A stretch of DNA of 51,195 bases from the IMG/VR virus record IMGVR_UViG_3300009024_000019, positions 1-51,195 of that record; one strand, written 5' to 3'. The DNA is from a virus. Below are positions 4,157 through 25,600 of the stretch, in pieces; position 1 is the first letter of the stretch, and each line of letters starts with the position of its first letter. Under the pieces are notes generated by a model that saw nothing but the letters and a program-made list of their open reading frames with translations, did no database searches and was not told where the DNA came from. The position numbers were made by a program, and so were the translations under genes.

Positions 4157-5419
4157 TTAAAAATAAGGTTTAAATTCAGGAACCGTTTCAACAAAATTTT
4201 GATTTCTCATTTTGTCTAATTTCTTAGTAGTCTCTACAAATCTCCTGAATACTTCCATATCACATGGTTGGCTATTCATAATACTAATTAACGATTCCCA
4301 ACCCGATACCGGTATCCCGTTTTCTTTTAGACTTGTATTGGCGTATTCTCTAATTTTCTGTGTAGCTATTGCTTTTAGATTTTCAGGTATATTGGTTATT
4401 GAATAAATATCTGGGGTCACACAAGGGTTGATGTGAAATCTTTTAATAAAGTAATCATTACTATTATATCCGGATTTTCCTACTTCACATTCTCTTATTT
4501 CATTTGGAATAATATTTAAATCAAATAGCTCTTTATGTAGTTCTACTATATTAAAAATGTTTAATATACTAACGGTAGGATGTATCCAGTACTCTATATT
4601 GCTATTAGAAATCTCAATTAAATTATTTCTAGTAGATTCCCAATTGCCTTTATGTCTTGTAAGTTCGAATACATCGCCTGTTCCGTCTATAGATAGACTT
4701 AAATGTACATTTTTAAATTTTTTCCATACATCAATAATATTTCTACCTTTAACTACTAATTTTGTAGCATTGGTGGAATATTTTAATTTTGTATCAAACC
4801 TCTGGTTCTCTTCTAAGAAGCTAATAAGCTTCCAATGTTCCGGCATTAATACGGGCTCTCCTCCGGCGAAGTGTATCTCTTGGGCTACATCTAGATTGGC
4901 ATCTAACTCATTCCAGAAATTAGTTTCATTATCTAAATTTATTAGACCGGTTTCAATATTATCATTATGGTCTCTTAATCTTATATAATCATTTGCCCAA
5001 GAAGTTGAAAATGTAGGAGAACAGGTTCTACAAGCTAGATTACAGTAGTTAGAAAATCTTATGTCCCAATATAGAAGTCTTAAATTTGTTACTTCTCCGT
5101 CTGGTTTTGTATTTTCTATTAGGTCTTTTACTTTATCGTACCAATTATTGTTCATGCCTATTCTCATTGAACTAAATCCAGCATCTTCCCTTCCTTTACA
5201 TCTTTCACAGGAAGCTGGGAGAGGTTTACCTTCAAGCATTCCCTTTCTCATTTCTTTCATCTTAGGGCTGTTTACTACTTCCTTTAGTGTCTGAGTTTTA
5301 ACATTACCTACTGCTAATTCGTTAGTAATTTCAGTCATACAGCAAGGATATGCTCTTCCATCGTTAATTATGTGTAAGTGCATCCACGGAGCTGTGCATA
5401 ATGTTTTACTGTCTTTCAT
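4157..5419 (-). CDS. Radical SAM protein with N-terminal Twitch-type cluster domain (A)
   Basis: 420 aa. The radical SAM motif CNLACRTC (Cys126, 130, 133) should bind a 4Fe-4S cluster that cleaves S-adenosylmethionine to start radical chemistry. FAGGEPV (about 184-190) is the SAM-contacting GGE motif, and SLSIDG is a typical barrel strand. Before the barrel is a Twitch-like set of cysteines: Cys8 in CTAPW, the Cys26-Cys27 pair, and Cys71/Cys74 in CERC. These probably hold an auxiliary Fe-S cluster. This N-terminal layout is known from phage and glycan-island radical SAM families of unknown substrate. It is the last of five such genes in the operon. Its stop lies one base from the next start (4155), and the stop of gene B is 6 nt before its start. 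Substrate unknown. Confidence 0.85.
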   Translation of the reverse strand: MKDSKTLCTAPWMHLHIINDGRAYPCCMTEITNELAVGNVKTQTLKEVVNSPKMKEMRKGMLEGKPLPASCERCKGREDAGFSSMRIGMNNNWYDKVKDLIENTKPDGEVTNLRLLYWDIRFSNYCNLACRTCSPTFSTSWANDYIRLRDHNDNIETGLINLDNETNFWNELDANLDVAQEIHFAGGEPVLMPEHWKLISFLEENQRFDTKLKYSTNATKLVVKGRNIIDVWKKFKNVHLSLSIDGTGDVFELTRHKGNWESTRNNLIEISNSNIEYWIHPTVSILNIFNIVELHKELFDLNIIPNEIRECEVGKSGYNSNDYFIKRFHINPCVTPDIYSITNIPENLKAIATQKIREYANTSLKENGIPVSGWESLISIMNSQPCDMEVFRRFVETTKKLDKMRNQNFVETVPEFKPYF

Positions 5420-5425
5420 AATTCT

Positions 5426-6649
5426 TTATTTAAAATAAGGTTCCCACTCAGGTAGGTAATTTTGTATTTTTAAATTTCTTGCTCTATCAAGTAAATTAAT
5501 ATAGGATTTAAATTTATCTAATTCTTTTGGACTAGCTGATTTATATAGTTCAGATTTTAGTCTATCTATTTCCATCTCTGTTAAATCTGAATTATTTTCT
5601 AAAACCTGTTGTTTTAATTCTTCTGGTAAGATCGAAACCTGTAAATGAGATGGATAATGTACGTAGTTGTGAGAAAAAAGTAATCCGAATTCTTTAAAAA
5701 AGTTTTTAAAGTTACTTAAATTATGAACATTTAAAGCACTAACAGTCTGGCATATCTCTAACTCAAATACATCTTTATATTTAGCAATTTTTGTAAAAGC
5801 AGTCATTATTGTATTCCAGTCTGATGGATATCGTACATAGTGGTTTCTATCTTCAATATCATCTATGGAGATTTGTATCTTTACCTTTTTAAATTTTTTC
5901 CATATCTCTAAAAAACTGTCCGGGAATTTTGTACTGTTTAAACTGTAACTAATTTTAATATCCTTTGCTTGGTTATTATCTATAAGCTTTTGTAAGAAGT
6001 ACCCATGTTCTTTAATTAAGGTAGGCTCTCCTCCATTTATCCAAATTTCCTGTAAGTCCTTACACTTATCGAGAAGGTTATCGTAAAATCCGTAATCTCT
6101 ATACCACTCTGTTTTTATCTCGTTTTTAAAATATTCTTTTTCAAACTCAGTACCCTTAAACACATGTATATCTTGGTTCCACCTGTTTGAAGAAAAAGGG
6201 TTACATGTGACACATTTCAAGTTGCATACTGAGCCTAGTCTTAGTTCTATGTATCTATAATTTATATCTTTTATGTGTCCTGTAGAATCAGTGTTTTTTA
6301 TATACTCTTCTAAGTATTTCCCATACTCCCTATTAGAAACTTCCCTTTTAGATTCTACACCTGCAGCTTCGTATTTGTAACATTTCTGACATAAAGAGGA
6401 GAATTCTCCGTTCATCATGTCTTTACGTAGCTTTTTAAACTTTTTTGAATTAGCTATTGAATCAAGCGAATCTTTGCTAAGAAATAAGTGCTGAGCTTCA
6501 TCATGATCTGTAGCTGCTGTAGAAGCACTATCTTTCATATCGGTAATACAGCAAGGTGTAATAGTACCTATAGGATGTGTAGCTAAATGTAGCCACGGTA
6601 GTGCACATATAGACTTACTCTTTTTACTACTTTCTATATGTTTCTCCAC
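5426..6649 (-). CDS. Radical SAM protein with N-terminal Twitch-type cluster domain (B)
   Basis: 407 aa. It has the same architecture as gene A. The Twitch-type cysteines are Cys15 (CALPW), Cys33-Cys34 and Cys87/Cys90 (CQKC). The radical SAM motif is CNLKCVTC (Cys142, 146, 149), followed by INGGEPT and a strand QISIDD, where A and C have SIDG. The start codon is GTG at 6649, lying inside the last codons of gene C and overlapping it by 16 nt; no ATG lies near a plausible N-terminus, because the CxLPW motif comes only 15 residues in. The overlap suggests coupled translation. It probably modifies the same class of substrate as its neighbours, but nothing in the sequence names it. Confidence 0.83.
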   Translation of the reverse strand: MEKHIESSKKSKSICALPWLHLATHPIGTITPCCITDMKDSASTAATDHDEAQHLFLSKDSLDSIANSKKFKKLRKDMMNGEFSSLCQKCYKYEAAGVESKREVSNREYGKYLEEYIKNTDSTGHIKDINYRYIELRLGSVCNLKCVTCNPFSSNRWNQDIHVFKGTEFEKEYFKNEIKTEWYRDYGFYDNLLDKCKDLQEIWINGGEPTLIKEHGYFLQKLIDNNQAKDIKISYSLNSTKFPDSFLEIWKKFKKVKIQISIDDIEDRNHYVRYPSDWNTIMTAFTKIAKYKDVFELEICQTVSALNVHNLSNFKNFFKEFGLLFSHNYVHYPSHLQVSILPEELKQQVLENNSDLTEMEIDRLKSELYKSASPKELDKFKSYINLLDRARNLKIQNYLPEWEPYFK

Positions 6650-7971
6650 CAGTTTAATACTTTAGGGTTTTCCGAATAGATTTCTTCTAGAGTATTTTCG
6701 TTTTTTCTCCACTTATCTACTCTAGTCAAATTTTGTTTACCTCTAACTAAGGCCTCCTTCCAATCAGGGTACTTTTCTTCAAATGTCTCTCTGTTTTTTA
6801 AATCTTCAAGACATTCTATCCAATTAGCATGTTTTGGGTTTACTTCTACTTTAGGTCTTATGTAGTCTAATATATCATCAATAACTTCGTTAAAGAGTTC
6901 TCTAGGTAGTACTTGGGGACACATAGTAACACTCCCGTCAAATGCAAATGTTGTTTTAATCAGGGTGTTGACATCTAGTTCAACTGCTAAATCAAATAAA
7001 CTCTTTAGGCTGAAAAGACCTGGGGTGGTTATAGTAAGGTCAAATGCAATACCGTATTGTCCATATTTTTGATTAAGAAATAAATATTCTTTAAAATTAT
7101 GTATCCATTGATCCCACTTAATACCATGTCTTACGTATTCAACATTTTTTCCAGTTCCGTCTATGGAAGCACAGATTTGAACCATTTTAAAGTGGGGAAG
7201 TAGGTTTTTTAGGTCCCAGTGTTTATAAGTCGTTCTACTAAAATTAGTATTGTAACGCACCCATACGTTTTTAGCTAAATCATTATTAACTAAATATTCC
7301 ATTACTTCCCAGTGTACTTCCCACATTAAAGGTTCTCCTCCTACCCAGTATATTTCCTCTATAGTACCATTCTTCACAGCTTCCCAAAGTTCAGCTTCTG
7401 CTACATCTTTTTGAAAGTTTTCAATAACTGGTTTATTTTCTTTTTTAGCCCAATGGTCACCATTTCCTTCTCTATCGTAATCGCCCATTGCTCTTCTCTC
7501 TGCTTCCCATGAAGATGAAAGTTGATCTCCGCACATTCTGCATTTAAAATTACAAAGGTTTCTTACCCTGTAATCAAAAGATATAGGAGGCATAGTTGTA
7601 AAGCCTGTTTCATCTGTTTTACTAAATGCTTCCTCAATTTTATTAGGGAATAAAGATTTATTAAAATAATCTCTATAAACAGATATATTTAGTAGTTGTT
7701 CATTACATACCGAACATTGAGGTATAACCTTACCTGCCATAAGGTCTCGTCTCACTCCTTTCATATATTCAGAGTTCCAATGTTCTTTGAGAGTACCGGG
7801 TTTATAAGAAGAAGTTCCGTCTGCTGCATCTGAGTCTAAATACTGTGTTGCCCAGGAAGCTTTTTCCCTAGATGCACAGCACATCCTCCTCTCACTCTGA
7901 GGAGAGAGGTAGGTGTGTGTCCATGGTGCTATACAAAACGTCTTATTACCTTCTTCTGGTTTAATTTTCAT
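6634..7971 (-). CDS. Radical SAM protein with N-terminal Twitch-type cluster domain (C)
   Basis: 445 aa. Twitch-type cysteines are Cys13 (CIAPW), Cys31-Cys32 and Cys86/Cys89 (CSVC). The radical SAM motif is CNFKCRMC (Cys140, 144, 147). The GGE motif is in YWVGGEPLMW and a strand CASIDGTG follows. It belongs with A and B in having the Cys-Cys pair, but it has a longer insertion between the two cluster regions, including a Ser/Asp-rich stretch at residues 47-56. It overlaps gene B by 16 nt and starts 3 nt after the stop of gene D. It is a cytoplasmic Fe-S enzyme by family. Substrate unknown. Confidence 0.85.
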   Translation of the reverse strand: MKIKPEEGNKTFCIAPWTHTYLSPQSERRMCCASREKASWATQYLDSDAADGTSSYKPGTLKEHWNSEYMKGVRRDLMAGKVIPQCSVCNEQLLNISVYRDYFNKSLFPNKIEEAFSKTDETGFTTMPPISFDYRVRNLCNFKCRMCGDQLSSSWEAERRAMGDYDREGNGDHWAKKENKPVIENFQKDVAEAELWEAVKNGTIEEIYWVGGEPLMWEVHWEVMEYLVNNDLAKNVWVRYNTNFSRTTYKHWDLKNLLPHFKMVQICASIDGTGKNVEYVRHGIKWDQWIHNFKEYLFLNQKYGQYGIAFDLTITTPGLFSLKSLFDLAVELDVNTLIKTTFAFDGSVTMCPQVLPRELFNEVIDDILDYIRPKVEVNPKHANWIECLEDLKNRETFEEKYPDWKEALVRGKQNLTRVDKWRKNENTLEEIYSENPKVLNWWRNI

Positions 7972-7973
7972 GC

Positions 7974-9596
7974 TTACCTTTTAGCTACTCCTCCAACAAA
8001 TTTAGAATCTGAATCTTTTTTTAGTTGTTCAACTAAGTCAATCATATCATCTTGTTGTTGATCGTCTGGTTCTACATACTCTTGTGATCCAGGATTAGCC
8101 CACTGTGGGTTCAGTACCCATCCTTCATCTTTTGCTTTTTTCAGTACTTCGTGAACATACCTGTTAGATTTAGCATCGTCTCCGTCTCTAACTCCTTTTA
8201 GTAGTTCGATATTTGTTTCTGGAATACTGTCCCACCATTCTTTTAACATTGGAAAGGCAGTTAAGAAATCTTTCTTTCTTCTCTTATCATATTGAGTGTA
8301 AAAAGATTTAAAATCTCTTTCTCTAGACTCTAATGAAGAGGTATGAGCGTGTCCTGAATCTACTTGTTTAATATATTCAATAAGTCTAAGTACCCCGTCT
8401 CTTTCCATATCCATAAAACCATTTGAGCCTCCATTCCAATTAGCTTCTAACCACTTTTCAATGTGTGCAGCTCTTTCCATCCTTACGTTAACAGGAAGTG
8501 TGACAATAGACTGGAAAGAAGGAAATCTTAATATGTTAAATGACATTACCGCGGCATGATGTCCAAACTCTTTTTTTAGTTTTAACATTTCATCCATAAA
8601 TTCTGTAATGGAGAATAAGCATAATGCATTAATAGTCATCATAACGTTAACAGAGGATACTTTTGCTTCTCTATTAACTCTGTAAATATTCTTTAACCAT
8701 ACATCCCATTCTAATCCGTATCTAATATACTCTGCTTGTAACCCTGTTGCCTCATTAGACGTATATATACTAAAATCTTTGAAGTTATGAGTTGAATCAA
8801 TTAAAGCATCAAGTAGCTGTGTCTTCTGTCCTAAGTTAGAGTTTACAGCAAAAGGTACCTCACATTCAGGATGATCTTTCCACCAATCCATTAGCTTCCA
8901 AAAATCAGGCGACATTGAAGGTTCCCCTCCAGTTACTCTTAATTCTCTTAAGGTGTACTGCAGCTCTGCTTCCCACCACTTCCAGAAAGCTTCAACATAT
9001 GGATTATCTTTATTTTTTCTACCATACGGCATTGCATGTTTACCATCATGTTGAAATGCTCCTGCACCATCGGATACTAGATTCTGGTAAGGTCCGAACA
9101 TCTTAATGTCTTTTTGCCAAGTAGTAGAAAAAGAAGCATTACAATATGAACATCCAAAGTTACAGTTAGCATCAAAAGCAATCTCTAATGTCTTGAGATC
9201 AACGTCAAAGCCTGCTCCAAATTTCTCTTTAGCATCTTTGAGTTCTTCGTCTGTATATATAACAGATTTATAAACCCTATCTGATACTTTATCTGCTCCT
9301 AAGTCTTCTATCTTCCAGCAGTATTCACATTCTTTAGGACGAACTCCGTCCATCATTTGTTTTCTTACTGCTTTTTTATAGGTAGTATTATGAATAGCTT
9401 TATAAGATTTAGCTACTTCCTCTAGAGGTATTTTATGTGCAGGTGGGTGATGACAGGAAGCGGTAGTTCCGTTTCCTAACCAGATTGTTGCATTATACCA
9501 TTTAGCTCCACAAAATGAGCCGGATAATTTGTTTACTACTCTATCTCTGTATTCCTGAAACGTTTCGTCGTCTCTTTTTGCAAAAACTCCTGCCAT
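7974..9596 (-). CDS. Radical SAM protein, CHHP subfamily (D), long form
   Basis: 540 aa, the longest of the five. The N-terminal cluster region is a variant: Cys29 (CGAKW in place of CxxPW), Cys48 followed by two His (CHHPPAHK), and Cys90/Cys93 (CEYC). The radical SAM motif is CNFGCSYC (Cys145, 149, 152), followed by VTGGEPS. Gene E shares the CHHP...HK signature and the later HNT(T/S)YKK segment, so D and E are close paralogues. About 60-70 extra C-terminal residues are Asp/Lys/Gln-rich and not recognised. The gene begins one base into the stop of the LamG-like gene at 9596-10180, so the two should be translated together. Confidence 0.82.
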   Translation of the reverse strand: MAGVFAKRDDETFQEYRDRVVNKLSGSFCGAKWYNATIWLGNGTTASCHHPPAHKIPLEEVAKSYKAIHNTTYKKAVRKQMMDGVRPKECEYCWKIEDLGADKVSDRVYKSVIYTDEELKDAKEKFGAGFDVDLKTLEIAFDANCNFGCSYCNASFSTTWQKDIKMFGPYQNLVSDGAGAFQHDGKHAMPYGRKNKDNPYVEAFWKWWEAELQYTLRELRVTGGEPSMSPDFWKLMDWWKDHPECEVPFAVNSNLGQKTQLLDALIDSTHNFKDFSIYTSNEATGLQAEYIRYGLEWDVWLKNIYRVNREAKVSSVNVMMTINALCLFSITEFMDEMLKLKKEFGHHAAVMSFNILRFPSFQSIVTLPVNVRMERAAHIEKWLEANWNGGSNGFMDMERDGVLRLIEYIKQVDSGHAHTSSLESRERDFKSFYTQYDKRRKKDFLTAFPMLKEWWDSIPETNIELLKGVRDGDDAKSNRYVHEVLKKAKDEGWVLNPQWANPGSQEYVEPDDQQQDDMIDLVEQLKKDSDSKFVGGVAKR

Positions 9597-10180
9597 TATA
9601 ACTTGTGTATAAAATTACATTTACCGGTAATATCTACCGATTTATCAAAAATAAATTGTTCAAATTTGTGATGAGATATAATTTCGTTCTCATCTTTCAA
9701 TATAAACTCATGTAGATCAAAATCTGTATAGTTTAAATTAAAATCATTCTTTGGAAAATTTCCTGCTCCTATTAATATGTGCGGGCTATCTGCTAATCCA
9801 AAAATTTTGTCCTTTAAATCTACTTCGTGGACAACCTTATTATCTATAAATAATCTAAAATTACCTTTAGGAGTGTGTTCTAATGAAATAATTACCTCTT
9901 CGTTATAGTTAACCAGTAAAGGTAAGTCTACATATATAGGACCGTCTTCGCAAGTTACTGTGAGTATCATCTTATCCTTATATAAATCTAGACCAGTATA
10001 CCTCGGTACTATTGTGAATAAGGTTTTTTGATCGTCTGATTTATCCTTTAATGTAAGTCTGAAGGTAAGGTGAAAGTAATGTTGCCCAGATAGTATCTTG
10101 TTTGCAGGTTTATCAGGAAATGTATCACATATGCTACTAGGCCAAAATACCCAAGGCGAGCCTTTTCTTATATCTATCAT
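9596..10180 (-). CDS. Free-standing LamG/concanavalin A-like lectin-fold protein
   Basis: 194 aa, no signal peptide or membrane segment. Its features fit a LamG-type beta sandwich: alternating short strands, the segment GNFRLFIDNKVVHEVDL (the usual 'xLYVDG' hairpin) and HILIGAG before a final strand run. The fold usually binds carbohydrate or mediates protein contact. It overlaps the end of radical SAM gene E by 44 nt and shares a base with gene D, so it is placed between the two CHHP-type radical SAM genes. LamG-like domains are also inserted in the two galactosyltransferase-like genes just upstream (11531-14247). It may deliver or hold the shared substrate. Fold assignment is by pattern only. 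Confidence 0.55.
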   Translation of the reverse strand: MIDIRKGSPWVFWPSSICDTFPDKPANKILSGQHYFHLTFRLTLKDKSDDQKTLFTIVPRYTGLDLYKDKMILTVTCEDGPIYVDLPLLVNYNEEVIISLEHTPKGNFRLFIDNKVVHEVDLKDKIFGLADSPHILIGAGNFPKNDFNLNYTDFDLHEFILKDENEIISHHKFEQFIFDKSVDITGKCNFIHKL

Positions 10181-11534
10181 ATAGGTTATTTAATTCAGGA
10201 AATGTTTTATTAAAATCGGTACCTCTTCTTTTATCTAATTCATCTACAAATTTAACAAAATCAGTCCTGTACTTATGTGTTTCAAAGCTATCCGTACCGG
10301 TTGCATAATCGTAGATTCTTTTCATTTTTTGTATCTCTACGTTAGAGAATCCATAATTATCGGTAGTAAACTCCTTTATACCGTAATATAGCATTTTTTC
10401 TGCAGACTTCAAAATTAATTCATGGTGGTCTGGTTCTAATATCTTTACAGATAAATGAGCTGGCCACCTCAGATAAGATGTATCTAACTGTAAAGCAGAT
10501 ATCCAATATCTCTGTCCATTAGCGTGTTTCTTTTTAAGCTCAAATGTTCTATCTATTACCTCATCATATGTAAAGACAGACAGGGCGTTAAAGGTAGCCA
10601 TAATGTTAATGGTTACTTTTGGGAGGGCAGTTAAAATTTTATCTACATTAGACCAAAATTTTTCTGAATCTAATCCATATCTTGTGTATTCTGCTTGAGC
10701 TCCTTTTGCTTCAATAGATGTAAATAAAGTTAATTCTCTTACTTTATCGTTTTCACATAAATCTTTAGCTATATCGATAAATTTATCAATTAGTGCATCT
10801 GGTACCCCTAAATTTGTGTTAATGGATAAAGATAGTTGGGAGTTTTTATCATGATGTTTTTGAATATACTCTAATACTTTAAATGTATCTTTTGATAAAA
10901 GAGGTTCCCCTCCTGTAATTCTGAAGGTATGTAAATCTTTAAATAAATCTGGCCACCATTTCCAAAATGCCTCTACATATGGGTTTTCTTCCGAATGTTT
11001 ATAAGGCATTTCTCCCTTAGCTTTTAAATTTGATATATCATTAAAGTTATAAGTGGTTGGATAAGGCCCTTCTTTTTCTATTTCTTCTACCCATTTTGAA
11101 GAATACTGTGGTCCGCAATATGCACATTTAAAATTACATGTATTAGAGAACGACACTTCAACATACCTTGGGTTAAAATCAGATCTCCAATGTGACTCCA
11201 CAATCTTATCGTATTGGTCTAATGACCAAGGTTCTGAAGATTTAAATGTTCTATCTGAAAATGAGTTAGAATTATCTTCTACGTTCCAACAGTAGTTACA
11301 TTCTTGAGGTCTTTTTCCTTCTAACATCTCTTTACGTTTTTGTTTTTTATAAGACGTATTATGTAATGCAGAAGGATTTCTTTTAATCTCTTTTAGTGAA
11401 ATCTTATGTGGAGAGGGATGGTGACAGGAGTGTGTCATTCCAAGACCTAAGTGTATAGTAACTTGGGTCCATTTTGCTAAACAAAAACCACAACCTACTT
11501 TATCTAACTTTTCCTTTACTTGCTGTAGTTTCAT
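10137..11534 (-). CDS. Radical SAM protein, CHHP subfamily (E)
   Basis: 465 aa. N-terminal cluster ligands are Cys18 (CLAKW), Cys37 in CHHPSPHK, and Cys79/Cys82 (CNYC). The radical SAM motif is CNFKCAYC (Cys133, 137, 140), then ITGGEPL. It pairs with gene D across most of its length, including the CHHP motif and a 'NTNLG' strand, and lacks D's C-terminal extension. Its start overlaps the stop of the first LamG-containing galactosyltransferase by 4 nt, and its end overlaps the free LamG gene by 44 nt. It is first in the run of five radical SAM genes. No RiPP precursor-like peptide is visible beside it. Substrate unknown. Confidence 0.83.
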   Translation of the reverse strand: MKLQQVKEKLDKVGCGFCLAKWTQVTIHLGLGMTHSCHHPSPHKISLKEIKRNPSALHNTSYKKQKRKEMLEGKRPQECNYCWNVEDNSNSFSDRTFKSSEPWSLDQYDKIVESHWRSDFNPRYVEVSFSNTCNFKCAYCGPQYSSKWVEEIEKEGPYPTTYNFNDISNLKAKGEMPYKHSEENPYVEAFWKWWPDLFKDLHTFRITGGEPLLSKDTFKVLEYIQKHHDKNSQLSLSINTNLGVPDALIDKFIDIAKDLCENDKVRELTLFTSIEAKGAQAEYTRYGLDSEKFWSNVDKILTALPKVTINIMATFNALSVFTYDEVIDRTFELKKKHANGQRYWISALQLDTSYLRWPAHLSVKILEPDHHELILKSAEKMLYYGIKEFTTDNYGFSNVEIQKMKRIYDYATGTDSFETHKYRTDFVKFVDELDKRRGTDFNKTFPELNNLYDRYKKRLALGILA

Positions 11535-12943
11535 AGTTTTATATTAATCATTTTAGCCCACGGTGTAAGAATGTTTTCGTTTTCTACTGTATACTCTAAG
11601 GTAGTAATTCCATCTTCTTTATAATTGATCTTACCTTGTTGCATTTGTAAAACGTACCGTTCTTCGTTTGCTGCTGTAGTATCTCCTTTTGCCCATTTGC
11701 CGTCTACTAATCCTTCATCAATATGGGGTAAACATGTAAATCTACCTTCTTTTCTATAGGGTAAAATTGAATTTGGAATGTCTATCTCTTCCTCTCTTAA
11801 TTCTACATTGAAGCTTTCTATTTCGGTATTGGGACTGTTAAAATCTGAGTCAATCACTAATCCATCGGTAGGAATATCTAAATGTAAGTCTTGGACTTCT
11901 TCTGGTGTTAAGTTTCTATCCCAAGCAAACACTTTTGCTATATCTCCTTTAAAGTATCTGTATCCACTATCTTCTGGTACAGATGGTGTAGTGCCTATGT
12001 ATATTCCGTTAGGGCCGTATTTTTTTAATTTACCGGTCCAGTTAAGGGGAGAAGGGCTTCCGTACCCTCCTTTGGAATCAACTTCTGTACCGTTTAGGTA
12101 TAAGTGGCTGGTTCTTGTTTCTTCATTAAATACCGCAGTTACCCAGCTCCATTGGTTATCGTATCTTTTCACCCACATGTAGTGGTGGTTACTAAACATA
12201 TCCCAGTATGTGAGAGAAAGTGCTCTTGAGTTATTAAATGATAATCCGTAGTCATACCCCGGTATTCTTAGAATAGGGTACTCAACGTATTTATTATCCT
12301 TATCTCCTATTAAGAAAATTTTATTTTTATTTGGCTGTTGAAAAGCTCGACACAGTATTGAGATTGTATGTGATTTTGAAGTTAACCCTCTAAGTTTTCT
12401 AGTAAATGGAACTTTACTATAAGAACTGTCTCCATTATATCGTAGGTATTTTTGTTTAGTCTTTTTCTGTAAGTATGTATCTAATGTTAAACCTTCTTCG
12501 TGACATCTCCAAAAAAGATCATCATCTTCCATTCCCCAATCCCAATATCCGTTAGAGTAACCGTTTGTGGCTTCTAAATGTTCTTTAGTAAATAAGACTG
12601 CACCTCCAAAGTACTCATGATACTTTAATTGATAGTCCATTTGTGAAATTTGAGTTGCAATATGGCGAGGACCTTCTGTAGGGTACGAATAATCTGCGCC
12701 GTCTTCTGGTATCATGTCTATATCATGGAAAACGACGTAGTCACATCCGTCTTCAATAGCGTGTTTTGCAGCTATGTTTTTAGTTGCACCTCTATTAAAA
12801 AGTTTTTCGTCTACTTGATGGCATATATAAATTTGAAAATCTATATTTCTTTCTTTAAGAAACCTCCCAACTCTTGGTATAAAGGTGTGTAAGTGTTCTT
12901 CTCTGTTTCTGTATGGTACACATACTCCTAATTTATGTTTCAT
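11531..12943 (-). CDS. Beta-1,4-galactosyltransferase-like (GT7) enzyme with inserted LamG domain (1)
   Basis: 470 aa. Residues 1-160 match the GT7 core: VPYRNREEHL (9-18), FNRGATKN (49-56), the metal-binding FHDIDMIPED (72-81), YFGGAVLF (111-118) and WDWGMEDDD (134-142). About residues 165-375 are a LamG/concanavalin-like sandwich, with LYLNGTEVDS and a final GDIAKVFAWDRNL strand. Residues 390-470 return to a GT7-like tail: an Arg-Tyr after LPHIDEG, then INYKEDGITTLEY, which parallels the 'DGLNSLTY' end of animal B4GalT enzymes. So LamG appears to be inserted into, not appended to, the transferase. It should transfer a sugar from a UDP donor with Mn2+. The paralogue at 12943-14247 abuts it, sharing one base. 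Confidence 0.8.
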   Translation of the reverse strand: MKHKLGVCVPYRNREEHLHTFIPRVGRFLKERNIDFQIYICHQVDEKLFNRGATKNIAAKHAIEDGCDYVVFHDIDMIPEDGADYSYPTEGPRHIATQISQMDYQLKYHEYFGGAVLFTKEHLEATNGYSNGYWDWGMEDDDLFWRCHEEGLTLDTYLQKKTKQKYLRYNGDSSYSKVPFTRKLRGLTSKSHTISILCRAFQQPNKNKIFLIGDKDNKYVEYPILRIPGYDYGLSFNNSRALSLTYWDMFSNHHYMWVKRYDNQWSWVTAVFNEETRTSHLYLNGTEVDSKGGYGSPSPLNWTGKLKKYGPNGIYIGTTPSVPEDSGYRYFKGDIAKVFAWDRNLTPEEVQDLHLDIPTDGLVIDSDFNSPNTEIESFNVELREEEIDIPNSILPYRKEGRFTCLPHIDEGLVDGKWAKGDTTAANEERYVLQMQQGKINYKEDGITTLEYTVENENILTPWAKMINIKL

Positions 12944-14247
12944 TATATGCCTATATTTAAATGTAAAACTTTATCTTTAAACTGTTTACTATGTAGAATA
13001 TATTCACAGTCTTTTAGTCCGTCTTTAGAGTTATTATAAACTCCTCTTTTTACTTCGTTATTATATCTTAATTGATTCCATCTAGTTAAATCACTTCTCC
13101 ATCTTCCTTCTACGTACCCGTTATCCGGGTGGGGAAGTTTGTATATGTCTCCTTTTCTTCTATAAGGTACTGTGCTGTCTATTTCGGTAGATTCAGGTGC
13201 ATCATATGGAGCTACATCTACATTATCTAATGTTCCTTTATCTCTTCTTATATGGTCAACCCATATATATTTTATTTTATTAGGTTTTAAGTACCTGTTA
13301 ACTACTTCATCTTTTCTCGTATATAGTGTTATACTGTCTATAGCACCGTGATAGTGGTTAGTGTCTTCTGAATCTGCTCCTACAATAATTGTCGATTGCT
13401 TACTATAGTCAAGTATTCTGTTTTTAAGTGTGGTAGAAGCTTCTAAAGAATCGTTTACATATAACGATACTGTTTTAGTTCGTGCTACATATTGTAGTTT
13501 TACATTAAATTCACTGTTAATAAAGACATCTGAATTAATAGTGTACTTATCAAAACTTTTATCAAAAAGCTGCACTGAGAATCTGTTAAAAGAATTGTAG
13601 GTAATGTTTAATTCATTTCCTCTTATACTTAATAAAGTGTACTGATCAAATACTTTTTTTGGATCCATTTCTACATGGTCAAGCCTTCCAGAAATCTCTA
13701 TAGTAAAATCCGTACTAAATTTTAAGTTATTGGGAATACGTGCGATTGAGTTTTTACCGTTAAATATAGCGGTGTCTCTACTAATTCCTTCTGAGGTTTT
13801 ATAAGGTGTGCCAAAATCTATATTATGTAAAGCACATCTGTACCTTAAATCGTCATCTTCATATCCCCAGCCCCAGTACATATTAGAGAATCCGTTTATT
13901 TTTTTAAAATCTTCAACCGGAAACATTGTCATACCTCCGAAATAGCTATCAAAAGGCAATTGGTCATCAAATAAATGAATTGGAGTATCATTTGGAGTAT
14001 AGTCCACTGTAACTGGAACCATATCAACATCATGAAACACAACATAAGTACATCCTCTTTTTATAGCATGTATAAATCCTATATTACATAACATTCCTCG
14101 ATTAAAGGATGTAGCATCGTCTTGTTCAACTACAATAATATTATAGTTTATACCTTGATTGTCTAGATAATGTTTTACTTCTCTAGTCCAAGCTTCAAGA
14201 TGTTGATATCTATTCCTATATGGAACTATAATTCCAAGTTTACTCAT
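12943..14247 (-). CDS. Beta-1,4-galactosyltransferase-like (GT7) enzyme with inserted LamG domain (2)
   Basis: 434 aa. The GT7 core at residues 1-145 has VPYRNRYQHLE (8-18), FNRGMLCNIGF (48-58), FHDVDMVP (71-78), YFGGMTMFP (102-110), INGFSNMYWGWGYEDDD (117-133). A LamG-like sandwich follows at about 155-315 (SLYVNDSLEAS; TIIVGADSED; GAIDSITLYTR). The GT7 C-terminal part resumes at about 357-434, with LPHPDNGYVEGRW and SKDGLKDCEYIL. It shares the domain-in-domain layout of its neighbour, but the LamG parts have diverged far more than the GT parts, so the pair may use similar donors on different acceptors. It overlaps the 62-aa gene upstream by 8 nt. Confidence 0.8.
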   Translation of the reverse strand: MSKLGIIVPYRNRYQHLEAWTREVKHYLDNQGINYNIIVVEQDDATSFNRGMLCNIGFIHAIKRGCTYVVFHDVDMVPVTVDYTPNDTPIHLFDDQLPFDSYFGGMTMFPVEDFKKINGFSNMYWGWGYEDDDLRYRCALHNIDFGTPYKTSEGISRDTAIFNGKNSIARIPNNLKFSTDFTIEISGRLDHVEMDPKKVFDQYTLLSIRGNELNITYNSFNRFSVQLFDKSFDKYTINSDVFINSEFNVKLQYVARTKTVSLYVNDSLEASTTLKNRILDYSKQSTIIVGADSEDTNHYHGAIDSITLYTRKDEVVNRYLKPNKIKYIWVDHIRRDKGTLDNVDVAPYDAPESTEIDSTVPYRRKGDIYKLPHPDNGYVEGRWRSDLTRWNQLRYNNEVKRGVYNNSKDGLKDCEYILHSKQFKDKVLHLNIGI

Positions 14248-14428
14248 TTTCTTTTCTCAGATCGAATATTTCGTGAAATTCAGAAAGATAGTATTGAATT
14301 CTTTCTCCCCATTCGTCTTTATCGATTTCTTCGAACCATAAACTTAGCGCATCTAATGAACTTGCAATGGTTTCTAACGCCTTAGTTTGACGTTCTTCTA
14401 AACTTGTCTCCACTTTTTTTGTGCTCAT
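14240..14428 (-). CDS. Small acidic helical protein, unknown
   Basis: 62 aa, rich in Glu and predicted to be almost wholly helical, with two Trp and no Cys. It overlaps the GT2-like gene upstream by 4 nt (ATGA type) and the GT7-like gene downstream by 8 nt, so it is a genuine member of the operon rather than a chance frame. I do not recognise it. A small partner or chaperone for a neighbouring enzyme is possible. A substrate peptide for the radical SAM enzymes is also conceivable, but it has no leader/core look. Confidence 0.6.
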   Translation of the reverse strand: MSTKKVETSLEERQTKALETIASSLDALSLWFEEIDKDEWGERIQYYLSEFHEIFDLRKENE

Positions 14429-15264
14429 ATTGTAACTATTTTTTTAATTAAGGTATTCCAATTAGAATAATCCATATATTCAATATATGAACTTTCTTTT
14501 AGTTTCTCAACTAAATATTCACTATTCTTTATATCTATTTTATCTTCTGTAGCTTTAATTGCATCGTACATTATCTTATATTCTTGAGAATACGCATACA
14601 TCATATTAGTGTTTGCTACTTTTTTAATTCTACTAATACATGTAGAATCCCATTTAAAGTGGTGTACTTGGGTAAATACCTCTTCTATTGGCATTCTTTT
14701 TGGATGAGATTTCCCCCAACTGTTTGAACCGTCTTTAAATTGAGCGTAGTGCTGTCCGGGTGTAACATCTTGATAACCTTTCATTAAAGTTACTTTGTTT
14801 GGGCATGCCCCAGACATTGGATACCTAAAAAATCCAGCCAAAGGAAATGCTTTGTGTAGATTTGTGTCTCTGTCCACTATTGGAAAAGTGCCATCTATAC
14901 CTATTCTATCCAAGAAACCTCCTGTGACAAAGTCATAATCGTTTCTCTCACATGTCTCTATTATATCTTCGATCGGTTCAGGGTATATTTGTAATTCATC
15001 ATCATCTGATACTATCCACCAATCATTTGGTTTGGTTCTTTTAGTTTCGTTATATAAATCTGTAACTTTATTCCAATTATATTTTGGTTCGGTTACAACT
15101 TTATATGGTGTGATTCCTAAATCCTCTACCTTTTCTAAAATATCATCTCTATCGGATTGTCTATATACAACTACATATACTTTATCTACCTTATCTTCAT
15201 AGTGTTTTAGCATATGAGGTAAGATATGTGTATTCTCTCCAACTACTGTAACTAGATTAGGCAT
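14425..15264 (-). CDS. Glycosyltransferase, GT2-like (GT-A fold)
   Basis: 279 aa. It begins with a strand and loop NLVTVVGENTHILPHMLKHY, as in family 2/92-like transferases where the first strand is followed by a nucleotide-contacting loop. The metal-binding DxD motif is WWIVSDDDE (82-90). Later HHFKWDS carries the His/Trp usual after the acceptor loop. Enzymes of this kind invert a nucleotide-sugar bond onto an acceptor in the cytoplasm; no membrane segment is seen. It overlaps the methyltransferase gene by 13 nt and the 62-aa gene by 4 nt. Confidence 0.7.
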   Translation of the reverse strand: MPNLVTVVGENTHILPHMLKHYEDKVDKVYVVVYRQSDRDDILEKVEDLGITPYKVVTEPKYNWNKVTDLYNETKRTKPNDWWIVSDDDELQIYPEPIEDIIETCERNDYDFVTGGFLDRIGIDGTFPIVDRDTNLHKAFPLAGFFRYPMSGACPNKVTLMKGYQDVTPGQHYAQFKDGSNSWGKSHPKRMPIEEVFTQVHHFKWDSTCISRIKKVANTNMMYAYSQEYKIMYDAIKATEDKIDIKNSEYLVEKLKESSYIEYMDYSNWNTLIKKIVTI

Positions 15265-16025
15265 TTTGCTCGTTGAAGTAATGTAATACCGGTTGAAGAA
15301 GGTTTATTTATTTCCTGCCCAGTATTAAAAAAGTTAAACTGCTTCCATTCCGGTCCAATTTCTTTTATAAACTTAGGTGGGCCATCAAATAAGTCGTAAT
15401 GTTGTTTTTCGTCTTCTGTTATTATTAGTTCTTTTTGAAACTTCTCATCTGTGTCGTGAATAGCTATCATACCATTAGATGATAGTAACTTAGAGTATAA
15501 TTCAAAATCTTGCTTGACATCTGCGTAAGAGTGTCCTGCATCGATATGTAAAAAATCTATCTTTATATCTTGCTTAACAAAAAAATTATAATATGCGTCC
15601 TTTGTAGTTTCTTTTATAAACCGAGGAGCAAATTGATACCTAAAGTACGAATCATCTTCTAAATAGTCCGGTGTACCGCCTACTCCGTTAGCTGCATCAA
15701 CAAGATATGTTGCACCGATGTCTCCCCAATTATAACTATCACTCCCTTCAAATATACCTTGCTTATGTAAATCTAACCGAGCTTGGGTCATAATGCGAGG
15801 AATAAACCCGCCTCCGGAACCTAAACATACTACAGATTTATACCTCATTAATTGTATGATAGTGTAGATTAGTAATCCGTCTCCTAAATGATTTTCGGTT
15901 GCTCCGTGTGTCCACCTGAAGGGGACTGGGGTAAAAGTTAAAGTTTCTTTTCCGTCTTCGTCCTGTTTTGTAACTTTGTTATTTGTAATATGAGTTCTTA
16001 CAAATTCATTATTAATTATAGACAT
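15252..16025 (-). CDS. SAM-dependent methyltransferase (class I, Methyltransf_24-like)
   Basis: 257 aa. The SAM-binding glycine loop is VVCLGSGGGF (65-74). FLHIDAGHSYADV (158-170) is the motif IV region typical of sugar or cephalosporin-hydroxylase-like methyltransferases, and GMIAIHDTDE follows as the next strand with metal-binding-type residues. Such enzymes often O-methylate sugars. It lies 4 nt after the first glycosyltransferase of the operon and overlaps the next by 13 nt, so capping or modifying the growing glycan is a reasonable reading. The acceptor is not determinable. Confidence 0.75.
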   Translation of the reverse strand: MSIINNEFVRTHITNNKVTKQDEDGKETLTFTPVPFRWTHGATENHLGDGLLIYTIIQLMRYKSVVCLGSGGGFIPRIMTQARLDLHKQGIFEGSDSYNWGDIGATYLVDAANGVGGTPDYLEDDSYFRYQFAPRFIKETTKDAYYNFFVKQDIKIDFLHIDAGHSYADVKQDFELYSKLLSSNGMIAIHDTDEKFQKELIITEDEKQHYDLFDGPPKFIKEIGPEWKQFNFFNTGQEINKPSSTGITLLQRAKCLI

Positions 16026-16029
16026 TTTT

Positions 16030-16884
16030 TTATCTTTTGCTAAATAGTTTTAAATCTAGATTAGGTATCATTATACAGTTTAAAAGGTGTTTAATATGTT
16101 CCTCATAATCATGGCCGTCCTTGTTATTGATATACCATCCTTTTAACGGTCCGTAATGTTTAAAGTACCTTTCTGATTCTTCTATGCTCCATATACCCTT
16201 ATTGTGAATTTCACCCCAATTCCATTTTGCACAATCCCAATATGTAGATAGTATACTTCTATACGCTACATTCTCTTTATCAAGCATATGTTTTAATAAA
16301 AGCTGTTCTGCAAAAATTAAATATTGAGAGTTAGGGGCTTTCATTTCTGTAAATTCTTCCATCATTTTAAGGCTCTCATTAGCGTACCTTCTAGTAAAAT
16401 CTGAGTCAGGTAAATTTAGAAAGGAAACATTAACAGATTCAGTTTTCCATCTGTTTTTATATGATAGTTTACGTATATATGGGTCTATGGAGGTAGGGTA
16501 GTACCCTTTTCCTATTTCTAAATTAGTTACGTATACCTTATTCAAGTCTAGAAAACCCTTTATTGGTTTATATACATGTGTATCATTATCCATTAAGATA
16601 ATAGGATCTTCTATTTCTGATAGAACCTGTAATTTAGAGGAAGCCCAGAATATTGATTTATTTATTCTTCCGCTTTTTGGGATAGGTTTTACCTGGTCCC
16701 ATATTTCTAATACTTTTAATTTATCTAAAAAATCTATAGTAATGTCATCAGCATATAAAATACAAATATCCTCTGGATGATTTCTCTTCCAAAGGATAGT
16801 TGATGTGAGCATTAATAGTATATTAAATTTACTATAAAAGTTCTTATTCTTTTCTATATTTTCTAAAACCCAAACTACTTTCAA
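16030..16884 (-). CDS. Putative glycosyltransferase (GT-A fold, GT8-like), TTG start
   Basis: 284 aa. It opens with a buried strand KVVWVLEN and has DPIILMDNDTHVYKPI, where Asp99-Asn-Asp101 is the DxD metal site. The order of strand, helix and DxD fits a GT-A retaining transferase. The only credible start is TTG at 16884: an in-frame stop lies two codons upstream and the next Met is at residue 25, inside the fold. It is the first gene of the modification operon and lies right after the terminator-like hairpin of the structural gene at 16942-17646. Confidence 0.6.
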   Translation of the reverse strand: MKVVWVLENIEKNKNFYSKFNILLMLTSTILWKRNHPEDICILYADDITIDFLDKLKVLEIWDQVKPIPKSGRINKSIFWASSKLQVLSEIEDPIILMDNDTHVYKPIKGFLDLNKVYVTNLEIGKGYYPTSIDPYIRKLSYKNRWKTESVNVSFLNLPDSDFTRRYANESLKMMEEFTEMKAPNSQYLIFAEQLLLKHMLDKENVAYRSILSTYWDCAKWNWGEIHNKGIWSIEESERYFKHYGPLKGWYINNKDGHDYEEHIKHLLNCIMIPNLDLKLFSKR

Positions 16885-22613: not shown

Positions 22614-25600
22614 TTAACTATAGATGTATAATTCTCCTGTTGAAGAATCTACGTGAATAGTACCCGAACCTTGGAATGTTGGAGCTGCTGCTGGTGCTGA
22701 AGCAGATACTTCGATGTTACCAATTTTAGATTGGTGAGTCGCTGATGTGTCTGCTGCGCCAATTCCTTGTGCAAATCCAAATACTCCTGCTGGGTTATCA
22801 AAGAAGATACCTGAACCAATGTTTGCTGATCCGTTTGATCCTCCAAAGATAATACCTGCATCTCCTGAGTTACTACCTGAGTTAAGTAAGATAAATCTAT
22901 CCTCAACGTTCAAGTTAGTTACTTGAGCTTCAAAAGTATTTCCTGTTACAGTTAAGTCTCCAGTTACTGTTAAGTTACCAGATACTGTTGGGTTAGTTAC
23001 AAATCCAACTGATACTGTAGTTCCTGATACTGTAGTTTCTGTTTGACCAGCTACACCTACAATTGATAAATCATCTGTCACTAAGTTTACATCTGCTGCT
23101 CCAGTTGAACCAGAGATTGAGATTGTAGAACTTAAGTTAGAGATTGTAGTTGCAATAGAAGAACTTAATGCGTTATCTGCTGCAATTCTAGCTGCCTCTT
23201 CAGAATCAATATTACCTTGTAAAACTACATCTGCTGCAATTCTAGCTGCCTCTTCAGAATCAATGTTAGATTGTAAAGTAGTATCTGCAGTAACTCTTGT
23301 AGAAGCTTCGCTGTCAATATTACCTTGTAGTACACCTTCTGCTGCTAAAGCTCTAGTTTCTTCTGCAGAAATATCTGATGCTAATTCTGATTTAGCTGAT
23401 GCTAAAGCTGCTGCTGAAGATCCAGATAGTGAAGAAACTTCTCCTTCTACTCCTAGTTTCACACCGGCTAAAGCTGCTGCTGAAGATCCAGATAAAGCTG
23501 TTACGCTTGATTCAATATTTGTAGATCTAGTGTTATTAGAAAGTACATATCCTGCTAATGCATCATCGTTTTCTGTATCAACACTGTTAATTAAACTAAC
23601 AATTTCTGCAAATGAATCTTTATCAGCATCTGCTGCTAATAGTACTGCATCCATTCTAGCTTTCTCAGCTGCAATTGATGCTGCTACTGAAGAGCTTAAT
23701 GCTAAGTCAGCTGCTGCGTATCCAGACTCGATTGTTGATTTAGCTGATGCTAAAGCTGTAGCAGAAGATCCAGATAGTGAAGAAATTTCTCCTTGTAGAC
23801 TAGTTTCTAAAGCTGAATCTGCTGCAATGTATGCAGAAGATTGTGCTGCTTTTAGAGCTTCTCTAGCAGTATGTGCTGAAGAGCTTAATGCTAAGTCAGC
23901 TGCTGCGTATCCAGACTCGATTGTTGATTTAGCTGATGCTAAAGCTGTGGCAGAAGATCCAGATAAAGCTGCTACACTTGATTCAATTGCTGTTTGACGA
24001 GCATTAGAAGAAGTTACATATCCAGCAAATGCTTGATCGTTAGCTGTATCTACAGAGTTTATTAATGATACAATTTCTGCAAATGAATCTTTATCAGCAT
24101 CTGCTGCTAATAATACTGCATCCATTCTAGCTTTCTCAGCTGCAATAGAAACTGCTAATGAGCTAGATAACGCTGTATCTGCTGCTGCTCTAGCTGTTGC
24201 TTCAGAATCAATATTTCCTTGAAGTACAGTATCTGCTGCTGCTCTAGCTGTTGCTTCAGAATCAATGTTAGACTGTAAAGTAGTATCTGCAGTAGCTCTT
24301 GTAGAAGCTTCACTATCGATATTACCTTGAAGTACACCTTCTGCTGCTAAAGCTCTAGTTTCCTCTGCAGAGATATCTGCGGATAAGCTAGATTCTAATG
24401 AAGCATTGGCTGCTGCTGCTGAAGAAGATAGAGCTGCTACATCTGCATCTGTTGCGAATGTACCGTCTAATGCATCTATTCTTGCATCAACTGAAGAGCT
24501 GAATGCTGTTAAGCCTAGTACGTTGTTAAATTCAATTGAACCAGATACTACGTGACCACCTTTTCCTACTACTACTCTACCTGAAGTGTTTTCTCCAAAC
24601 TCAACAGTAACTTGATTGTCGCTTGATAAAGTAATTGACGCTGGGATAATCATTCTATCACTGTCGTCGTATACTGTAACGGTAACGTTCTTACTGTTAA
24701 AGTTATGAGTTACTACTGTAGATATAACATTAGAGAAGGTAGAAGCTACTGTTGCAGCTTGGTCTATTGTAATGTTGGTTAACTGTGAACCGTCTCCAGC
24801 AAATGAATTTGCTACTACATCTTGACCTACTAAGTTAGCTAATTGCTGTTCTGATCCAGAAACGATACCTGCTGGTATGTTAATTAATTCAGTATAGTCA
24901 TTAGTTAAGTTAGCAATAGTACTTGCAAAAGAAGCTGAGATTGAAGCATCTGCTGCTTGGTAAGCAGAAGTTAATGCTGTATCTGCTGCTGCTCTAGCTG
25001 TTGCTTCAGCATCGATATTACCTTGTAAAGTTGTATCTGCTGCAGATCTTGTAGCTGCCTCAGCATCAATGTTACCTTGTAAAGTTGTATCTGCTGCTGC
25101 TCTAGCTGTAGCTTCAGATGAAATATTTCCTTGTAGAACAGAATCAGCTGCTTGGTAAGCAGAAGTTACATCTGATTTCAAGTTATCATTAGCGACTGCT
25201 GCTGAAGAAGATAAAGCTGATACGCTTCCTTCAATAGTTGTTGATCTACTATCGTTAGAAAGTACATAGCTAGCAAATGCTTGATCATTAGTAGTATCTA
25301 CGCTGTTAATTAAAGATACAATCTCTGCGAAGGTATCTGCATCTGCTGTAGAAGCTGATAAGATAGCATCGATTCTTCCTTTTTCAGTTCCAATTTTTCC
25401 GTCTAAAGAAGTTTCAATTGCTACTCTTTGAGAATGAGCTGAAGATGATAAAGCAGAATCAGCTGCGATATATGCAGAAGATTGTGCTGCTACTGCATCT
25501 GCTAATGCTTGAGCTGTTGAAGAAGATAGTGCTGAATCAGCTGCTTGGAAAGCAGAAGTTAAAGCAGATCCTTTAGATGCTAAAGCAGAAGCTACTGAGC

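Follow-up and report, generated by a model that had tools for sequence, protein, structure and literature searches.

Two neighbouring genes of the phage genome analysed here encode galactosyltransferase-like proteins in which the core of a GT7 enzyme is followed by a lectin-like LamG domain and then by a short C-terminal piece. They raise the question of whether the LamG domain splits the transferase, with the C-terminal piece completing the GT7 fold, or merely forms a tail domain. The stretch of DNA analysed (the window), 51,195 bases long, comes from an uncultured marine phage and constitutes a complete IMG/VR virus record. Among its products are a T4-type major head protein, a terminase and tail fibres; the head protein shares 69% identity with its counterpart in Flavobacterium phage immuto. 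The window also encodes a repetitive structural protein of 1974 residues (22614-28538), with a Bactofilin-like match at 1729-1810.

Two overlapping genes encode proteins with a GT7 core and a LamG domain

Protein A (470 residues; 11531-12943, minus strand) and protein B (434 residues; 12943-14247, minus strand) are each encoded by an uninterrupted ORF. B lies upstream of A, and A upstream of a radical SAM gene, with 1-base ATGA overlaps coupling the three genes. Because each protein is encoded in a single reading frame, the layout is not a frameshift artefact.

The GT7 core motifs that the initial annotation had assigned to both genes were confirmed (FHDIDM/FHDVDM and WDWGMEDDD/WGWGYEDDD), and Pfam searches matched GT7N, GT7C and Laminin_G_3 in A and B alike. 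Matches to GT7N (E 3.6e-20 for A, 5.5e-21 for B) and GT7C (E 2.7e-20 for A, 7.1e-20 for B) were above the curated cut-offs. The N-terminal GT-A core, placed by Pfam and phmmer and, in A, by conservation of 99-100%, comprises residues 1-160 of A (12464..12943, minus strand) and residues 1-150 of B (13798..14247, minus strand). Over the first ~150 residues, phmmer searches of PDB sequences matched A to B4GALT7/B4GALT1 (E 2.9e-32) and B to B4GALT1 (E 1.9e-27). The core of A contains the metal/donor motif D74-x-D76, the donor-site tyrosine Y111, and W136-G-M-E139-D140-D-D, which provides the Trp-loop and base; these positions align with Asp252/Asp254, Tyr289, Trp314 and Glu317/Asp318 of bovine B4GALT1. 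The equivalent residues of B are D73-x-D75, Y102 and W127..E130-D131. GT7N and GT7C were found in all 90 homologues sampled, and LamG in 85 of these.

The lectin-like stretch described after the core is likewise present in both genes. Laminin_G_3 matched residues 173-351 of A (E 2.4e-12, 47.7 bits) and residues 164-311 of B (E 3e-8, 34.4 bits), with a cut-off of 27.6 bits. Pfam and Foldseek together place a LamG/concanavalin A-like domain, pentraxin-like by fold, at residues 163-390 of A (11774..12457, minus strand), and these methods with hhalign place a short form of LamG at residues 155-357 of B (13177..13785, minus strand). The two LamG domains matched each other in hhalign with a probability of 99.5. 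A 'YYD...DLSGN.N.G' strand motif, which in LamG_3 proteins is commonly found ahead of the FNG..Y start, stands at the end of the insert in B-type LamG domains and in a bacterial gene (L092:3941-5431), as if circularly permuted.

The LamG domain interrupts the GT7 domain

Pfam reported no domain in the last ~75-80 residues of A or B. A profile was made from the C-termini of 50 LamG-free bacterial GT7 proteins, with zero phage sequences among them. This tail profile matched residues 397-461 of A (E 7.5e-10) and residues 363-428 of B (E 4.4e-6), and 160 of 161 phage homologues at E < 0.01, nearly always at the extreme C-terminus. Outside the GT7 list it gave two strong matches only, L077_6112 and L082_1, both of which look like fragments of the same genes. 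The C-terminal 'DG...Y' piece, which had been likened to the end of GT7 enzymes, is thus a GT7-type end. In A it spans residues 394-470 (11534..11764, minus strand) and contains H407, N426, R429/Y430, D444-G445 and Y451; aligned with bovine B4GALT1, H407 corresponds to the metal ligand His347, R429/Y430 to the acceptor residues Arg359/Phe360, and D444-G445 to the DG. In B it spans residues 359-434 (12946..13173, minus strand), with H373, N391, R394/Y395, D409-G410 and Y416 as equivalents. Conservation supports the assignment in both proteins.

When the family profile A1 (90 proteins) was compared with B4GALT1, two pieces matched in order: the core, followed by the final 44 positions, where NqlryvnevqkgkidykeDGlstlkY aligned with NPQRFDRIAHTKETMLSDGLNSLTY of B4GALT1; the LamG positions of the profile matched different PDB chains, sialidase and pentraxin among them. 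Single sequences from which LamG had been excised gave matches in PDB that extended only partly into the B4GALT tail, and the C-terminal profile alone gave E values of ~1, with B4GALT1 accounting for 12 of its 14 matches. The phmmer alignment of residues 162-175 of A with the B4GALT metal loop was judged false; this stretch is the first LamG strand.

Alignment of A and B with LamG-free GT7 proteins required a single gap of >200 residues, which opens after the short strand that follows the WGxEDDD helix and closes ahead of the strand that runs towards the metal His. Among 132 viral GT7 ORFs retrieved with a LamG-free query (alignment A9 scan), the distance from core to tail was about 0 in 50 and about 220-320 amino acids in 76, with none intermediate; the tail match was absent from the other 6, at least some of which are truncated by the end of the locus. 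Laminin_G_3 was found in all eight insert-bearing ORFs scanned and in neither of the two insert-free ORFs scanned. Because the viral GT7 proteins form two clearly separated classes that differ at one insertion point, LamG is best described as a nested insertion.

AF2 models of A and B had mean pLDDT values of 93.3 and 93.6 and pTM values of 0.84 and 0.89, respectively, and their tail blocks had pLDDT values mostly of 86-98, with one block of A at 75. Foldseek matched the core to B4GALT1/7 (TMt up to 0.62 over ~150 residues) and the insert to pentraxin (A, TMt up to 0.73) or laminin LG (B, TMt 0.68). Core and LamG were matched separately, by alignments that do not cross the insert; a few longer alignments to B4GALT chains were set aside, their rmsd being above 5 A. 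In BFVD, giant-virus galactosyltransferases matched the core and LamG proteins the insert, and none of the 50 best structures spanned both GT7 core and LamG.

The blank in Pfam after LamG, together with Foldseek local alignments that span the first ~150 residues only, could be read to mean that the last 80 residues are unrelated to GT7 and that LamG is merely a tail domain. We consider this extremely improbable, and at the level of homology it is already contradicted: the near-universal match of phage tails to a LamG-free profile, the match to B4GALT1 in order, the conserved metal His, acceptor Arg-Phe/Tyr and DG, and the insert-free viral and bacterial homologues that align straight across the junction all argue against it. 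These same results strongly support the proposal that LamG splits the transferase and that the tail completes GT7. The catalytic domain of A and B is non-contiguous, interrupted by ~200-230 LamG residues, and this interruption is, as judged by the homology of both halves, a variation in layout within GT7.

The insertion separates two sets of active-site residues at the lid

GT7 enzymes are Mn-dependent inverting transferases in which a lid closes over the donor, after which the acceptor site forms. The initial annotation had placed LamG after the acceptor/metal region. This holds in part: the DxD motif and the Trp-loop precede the insert, but the metal His, the acceptor Arg-Phe/Tyr and the last strands follow it. 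In bovine B4GALT1 the metal site consists of Asp254, Met344 and His347, and the N-acetyl pocket of Arg359, Phe360 and Ile363 (PMC7565966); in human B4GALT1 the lid comprises residues 338-365, and the Mn site takes shape, together with the acceptor helix, when it closes (PMC6198961). Since the metal His and the acceptor pocket align after LamG, the insert sits where the lid is hinged on its N-terminal side.

Residue conservation was computed over 233 unique homologues. Before LamG, D74 and D76 were invariant (100%) and Y111, W136, E139 and D140 were each conserved at 99.6%; after LamG, conservation was 99.1% for H407, 100% for N426 and 99.6% for G445. At the acceptor positions, R429 was conserved at 85% (K in 9%), and Y or F occupied position 430 in 99%. 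These alignments show every catalytic residue to be conserved on both sides of LamG, and the insertion point to be common to the whole family.

LamG diverges rapidly together with its transferase

A and B are 43% identical in the core, 18% in LamG and 34% in the tail. Mean identities for core, LamG and tail were 78, 51 and 64% within the A family, 57, 31 and 39% within the B family, and 46, 22 and 30% between the two. LamG therefore diverges faster than the GT parts, as had been proposed, both within and between A and B. The accompanying suggestion that LamG modules had been swapped was not borne out: GT and LamG identities are correlated (Spearman 0.77-0.79), and the GT and LamG trees of the B family agree in the main groups and in 44 of 100 splits. 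Given these correlated identities and common groups, LamG diverges fast yet travels with its GT. Swapping was also considered for outlier pairs such as L168/L172 (GT 67%, LamG 23% identical), for which fast divergence is the simpler explanation. The short-LamG group forms nearly one clade in both GT and LamG trees. A single insert-bearing clade was not rejected (p-AU 0.83), and the constrained tree outscored the free tree. The simplest candidate history (support 10) has a single insertion and a later duplication that gave the tandem pair, or a triplet in some loci.

The genes belong to a conserved phage cassette

IMG/VR contained at least 241 relatives of A, and at least 574 by profile search; the core-LamG-tail design is found in hundreds of phage genomes from the environment. 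Searches of cultured phages with A, B, a LamG-free GT7 and the neighbouring GT2-like protein found none, and immuto (Immutovirus), the nearest cultured relative by capsid protein, has an annotated fibre region without such genes. Gene neighbourhoods were compared in a sample of 162 loci, some of which are the same contig retrieved twice. The order was strikingly constant: small structural genes, DUF6734, methyltransferase, GT2-like, B, A, radical SAM, LamG-like and more radical SAM genes. In most loci the cassette adjoins tail-fibre genes and lies in the structural-gene order.

The start codon of the twitch-domain radical SAM gene of the window (10137..11534, minus strand; NCBIfam NF033640, E 5.6e-102) overlaps the stop codon of A, and this family occurs in 154 of the 162 loci. 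Upstream of B, also on the minus strand, are genes for a GT2-like protein (Glyco_tranf_2_4; 14425..15264; Pfam E 2.5e-5, just below the cut-off; 155/162 loci), a methyltransferase (Methyltransf_24; 15252..16025; Pfam E 8.2e-11; 141/162) and a DUF6734 protein (16030..16884; Pfam E 1.5e-9; 86/162). Five radical SAM genes lie beside the GT cassette at 4157-11534, with a single LamG-like gene between them; all four that were scanned against NCBIfam are of the twitch-domain type (NF033640). Downstream of the radical SAM genes, a UDP-glucose dehydrogenase gene (3-1058; phrog_9148, E 3.5e-91) runs off the end of the record. Three loci (L239, L246 and L294) contain three consecutive GT7-LamG genes, including a third, divergent clade, and in two others a small cytidylyltransferase-like gene, its family judged by eye, lies just before the A-type gene (L075:4588-5001 and L082:1256-1669).

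Outside viruses, two similar bacterial contigs (L090 and L092) contain one GT7-LamG gene each, which in L092 is followed by a GT2 gene and then an ABC transporter gene. Three further loci with the phage cassette order (L085-L087) may be phage DNA in bins.

Relatives of the inserted LamG were also detected elsewhere in the cassette. The stand-alone protein encoded at 9596..10180 (minus strand; family c8) is a distant relative, matching the LamG of B-type GT7 proteins with an hhalign probability of 93 and family c7 with 96.9; the LamG of B in turn matched the stand-alone c7 proteins with a probability of 99.3. In radical SAM fusions from six loci (family c33), the N-terminal part is related to the inserted LamG (probability 97.7). 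Such LamG-like N-terminal fusions to twitch radical SAM proteins are found at L204:8831-10933, L214:3126-5234 and L220:6602-8722 and in three more loci; in other loci the two are separate neighbouring genes. Judging from these profile relationships, a single lectin-like family occurs on two kinds of enzyme in the cassette that are themselves unrelated, which suggests that LamG is a substrate-recognition module common to the GT7 and radical SAM enzymes.

Proposed function and alternative explanations

Overall, we think it probable, if by no means certain, that A and B are catalytically intact GT7 transferases whose lid-hinge LamG domain handles the acceptor, and that they help to build a glycan with their cassette neighbours. 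A and B would be metal-dependent inverting transferases, most likely active on a UDP-sugar; retention of the donor-site tyrosine (Tyr289) makes UDP-Gal the probable donor. The LamG/ConA-like domain, apparently placed in the GT-A domain by a single insertion at the lid's N-terminal hinge, would bind the acceptor, either a glycan or a glycosylated protein, and hold it by the lid as this closes. Such a built-in acceptor module may resemble alpha-lactalbumin on B4GALT1 in its position and in what it does, and it is reasonable to suppose that LamG sets acceptor choice. A and B may act in succession, or at related positions, on a glycan to which the neighbouring GT2-like and methyltransferase proteins would also contribute, while the LamG relatives on radical SAM enzymes might recruit those enzymes to the same target. 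Gene neighbourhood suggests that this target is most likely the phage's own adhesin or tail fibre. A stronger version, in which acceptor binding to the hinge-nested lectin gates lid closure and catalysis, and the lectin relatives on radical SAM enzymes make up a multi-enzyme glycan/adhesin system with one target, is tentative and somewhat unlikely as a whole.

Many LamG domains bind proteins, not sugars, and the nested LamG might instead be a docking or assembly module that joins cassette enzymes or a partner and makes no contact with the acceptor sugar. Its laminin and pentraxin relatives often bind proteins, LamG relatives occur on or beside radical SAM enzymes of the same cassette, and fast divergence in step with the GT is what a partner-binding surface would show. 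However, a terminal fusion would be enough for tethering, and the site at the lid hinge, by the acceptor pocket, better suits acceptor handling; we regard docking as unlikely. That the cassette modifies a host surface polysaccharide or glycoprotein, for example in a superinfection block, and not a phage adhesin, is nearly as likely, although we put it at somewhat short of even. Clusters of glycosyltransferase genes in phages have been interpreted as systems that modify capsular polysaccharides (PMC7824862), UDP-glucose dehydrogenase is encoded nearby, as are NDP-sugar epimerase-like proteins in other loci, and a bacterial contig combines a single GT7-LamG gene with GT2 and an ABC transporter; the position of the cassette beside tail-fibre genes in most loci argues for the adhesin. 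The same position, and the frequency of LamG lectins in phage structural proteins (BFVD matches; PMC7824862), would also fit a virion lectin in which the GT7 part is a dead scaffold, but conservation of D74, D76, W136, E139, D140 and H407 at 99-100% makes this very unlikely. Active transferases with an acceptor-docking LamG are the most likely reading.

Comparison with known systems

The animal enzymes B4GALT1 and B4GALT7 (CAZy GT7) have the GT-A core, DxD, WGxEDDD Trp-loop, metal His, acceptor Arg-Phe/Tyr and DG..Y of the phage proteins in the same order, but in them the Trp-loop helix/strand leads to the lid without an intervening domain; the phage enzymes have a LamG of ~200-230 residues there. 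At the position of Met344, the second metal ligand of the bovine enzyme, protein A has Cys, and B-type proteins vary. LamG-free GT7 proteins (L088, Parachlamydiaceae; L089, Halieaceae; L238; L303) have the C-terminal piece and are direct empty-site counterparts, with an insert length of about 0 in bacteria and viruses; the two nearest bacterial ones are 48-49% identical in the core.

The Laminin_G_3/pentraxin domains of phage adhesins, sialidases and animals belong to the same LamG fold and sequence family; to our knowledge, they are terminal or in tandem, never nested in a catalytic domain. Polypeptide GalNAc-transferases (GT27) have a C-terminal ricin-type lectin that steers acceptor choice. 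They also combine a transferase with a lectin, but differ in GT family, lectin fold and lectin position, and the other glycosyltransferase lectin modules known to us are attached at a protein end. A literature search for the nested GT7-LamG layout found none; UniProt and InterPro architectures were outside this search, and unremarked entries may exist there. GT7 and LamG are each well known, and their nesting is undescribed as far as could be searched.

The layout is part of a cassette that is conserved across many uncultured marine phages and represented by none of the isolates searched, and points to a phage glycan-modification pathway common to GT7 and radical SAM enzymes. With a nested lectin beside a moving lid and natural insert-free counterparts, acceptor control is directly testable, and the transferase pairs could serve as parts for making galactosylated products. 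The closest functional analogy is lactose synthase, in which a second domain by the acceptor site of B4GALT1, alpha-lactalbumin, alters acceptor choice (PMC7565966); alpha-lactalbumin is, however, a separate and unrelated protein, whereas the phage module is LamG-like and covalently nested within the enzyme.
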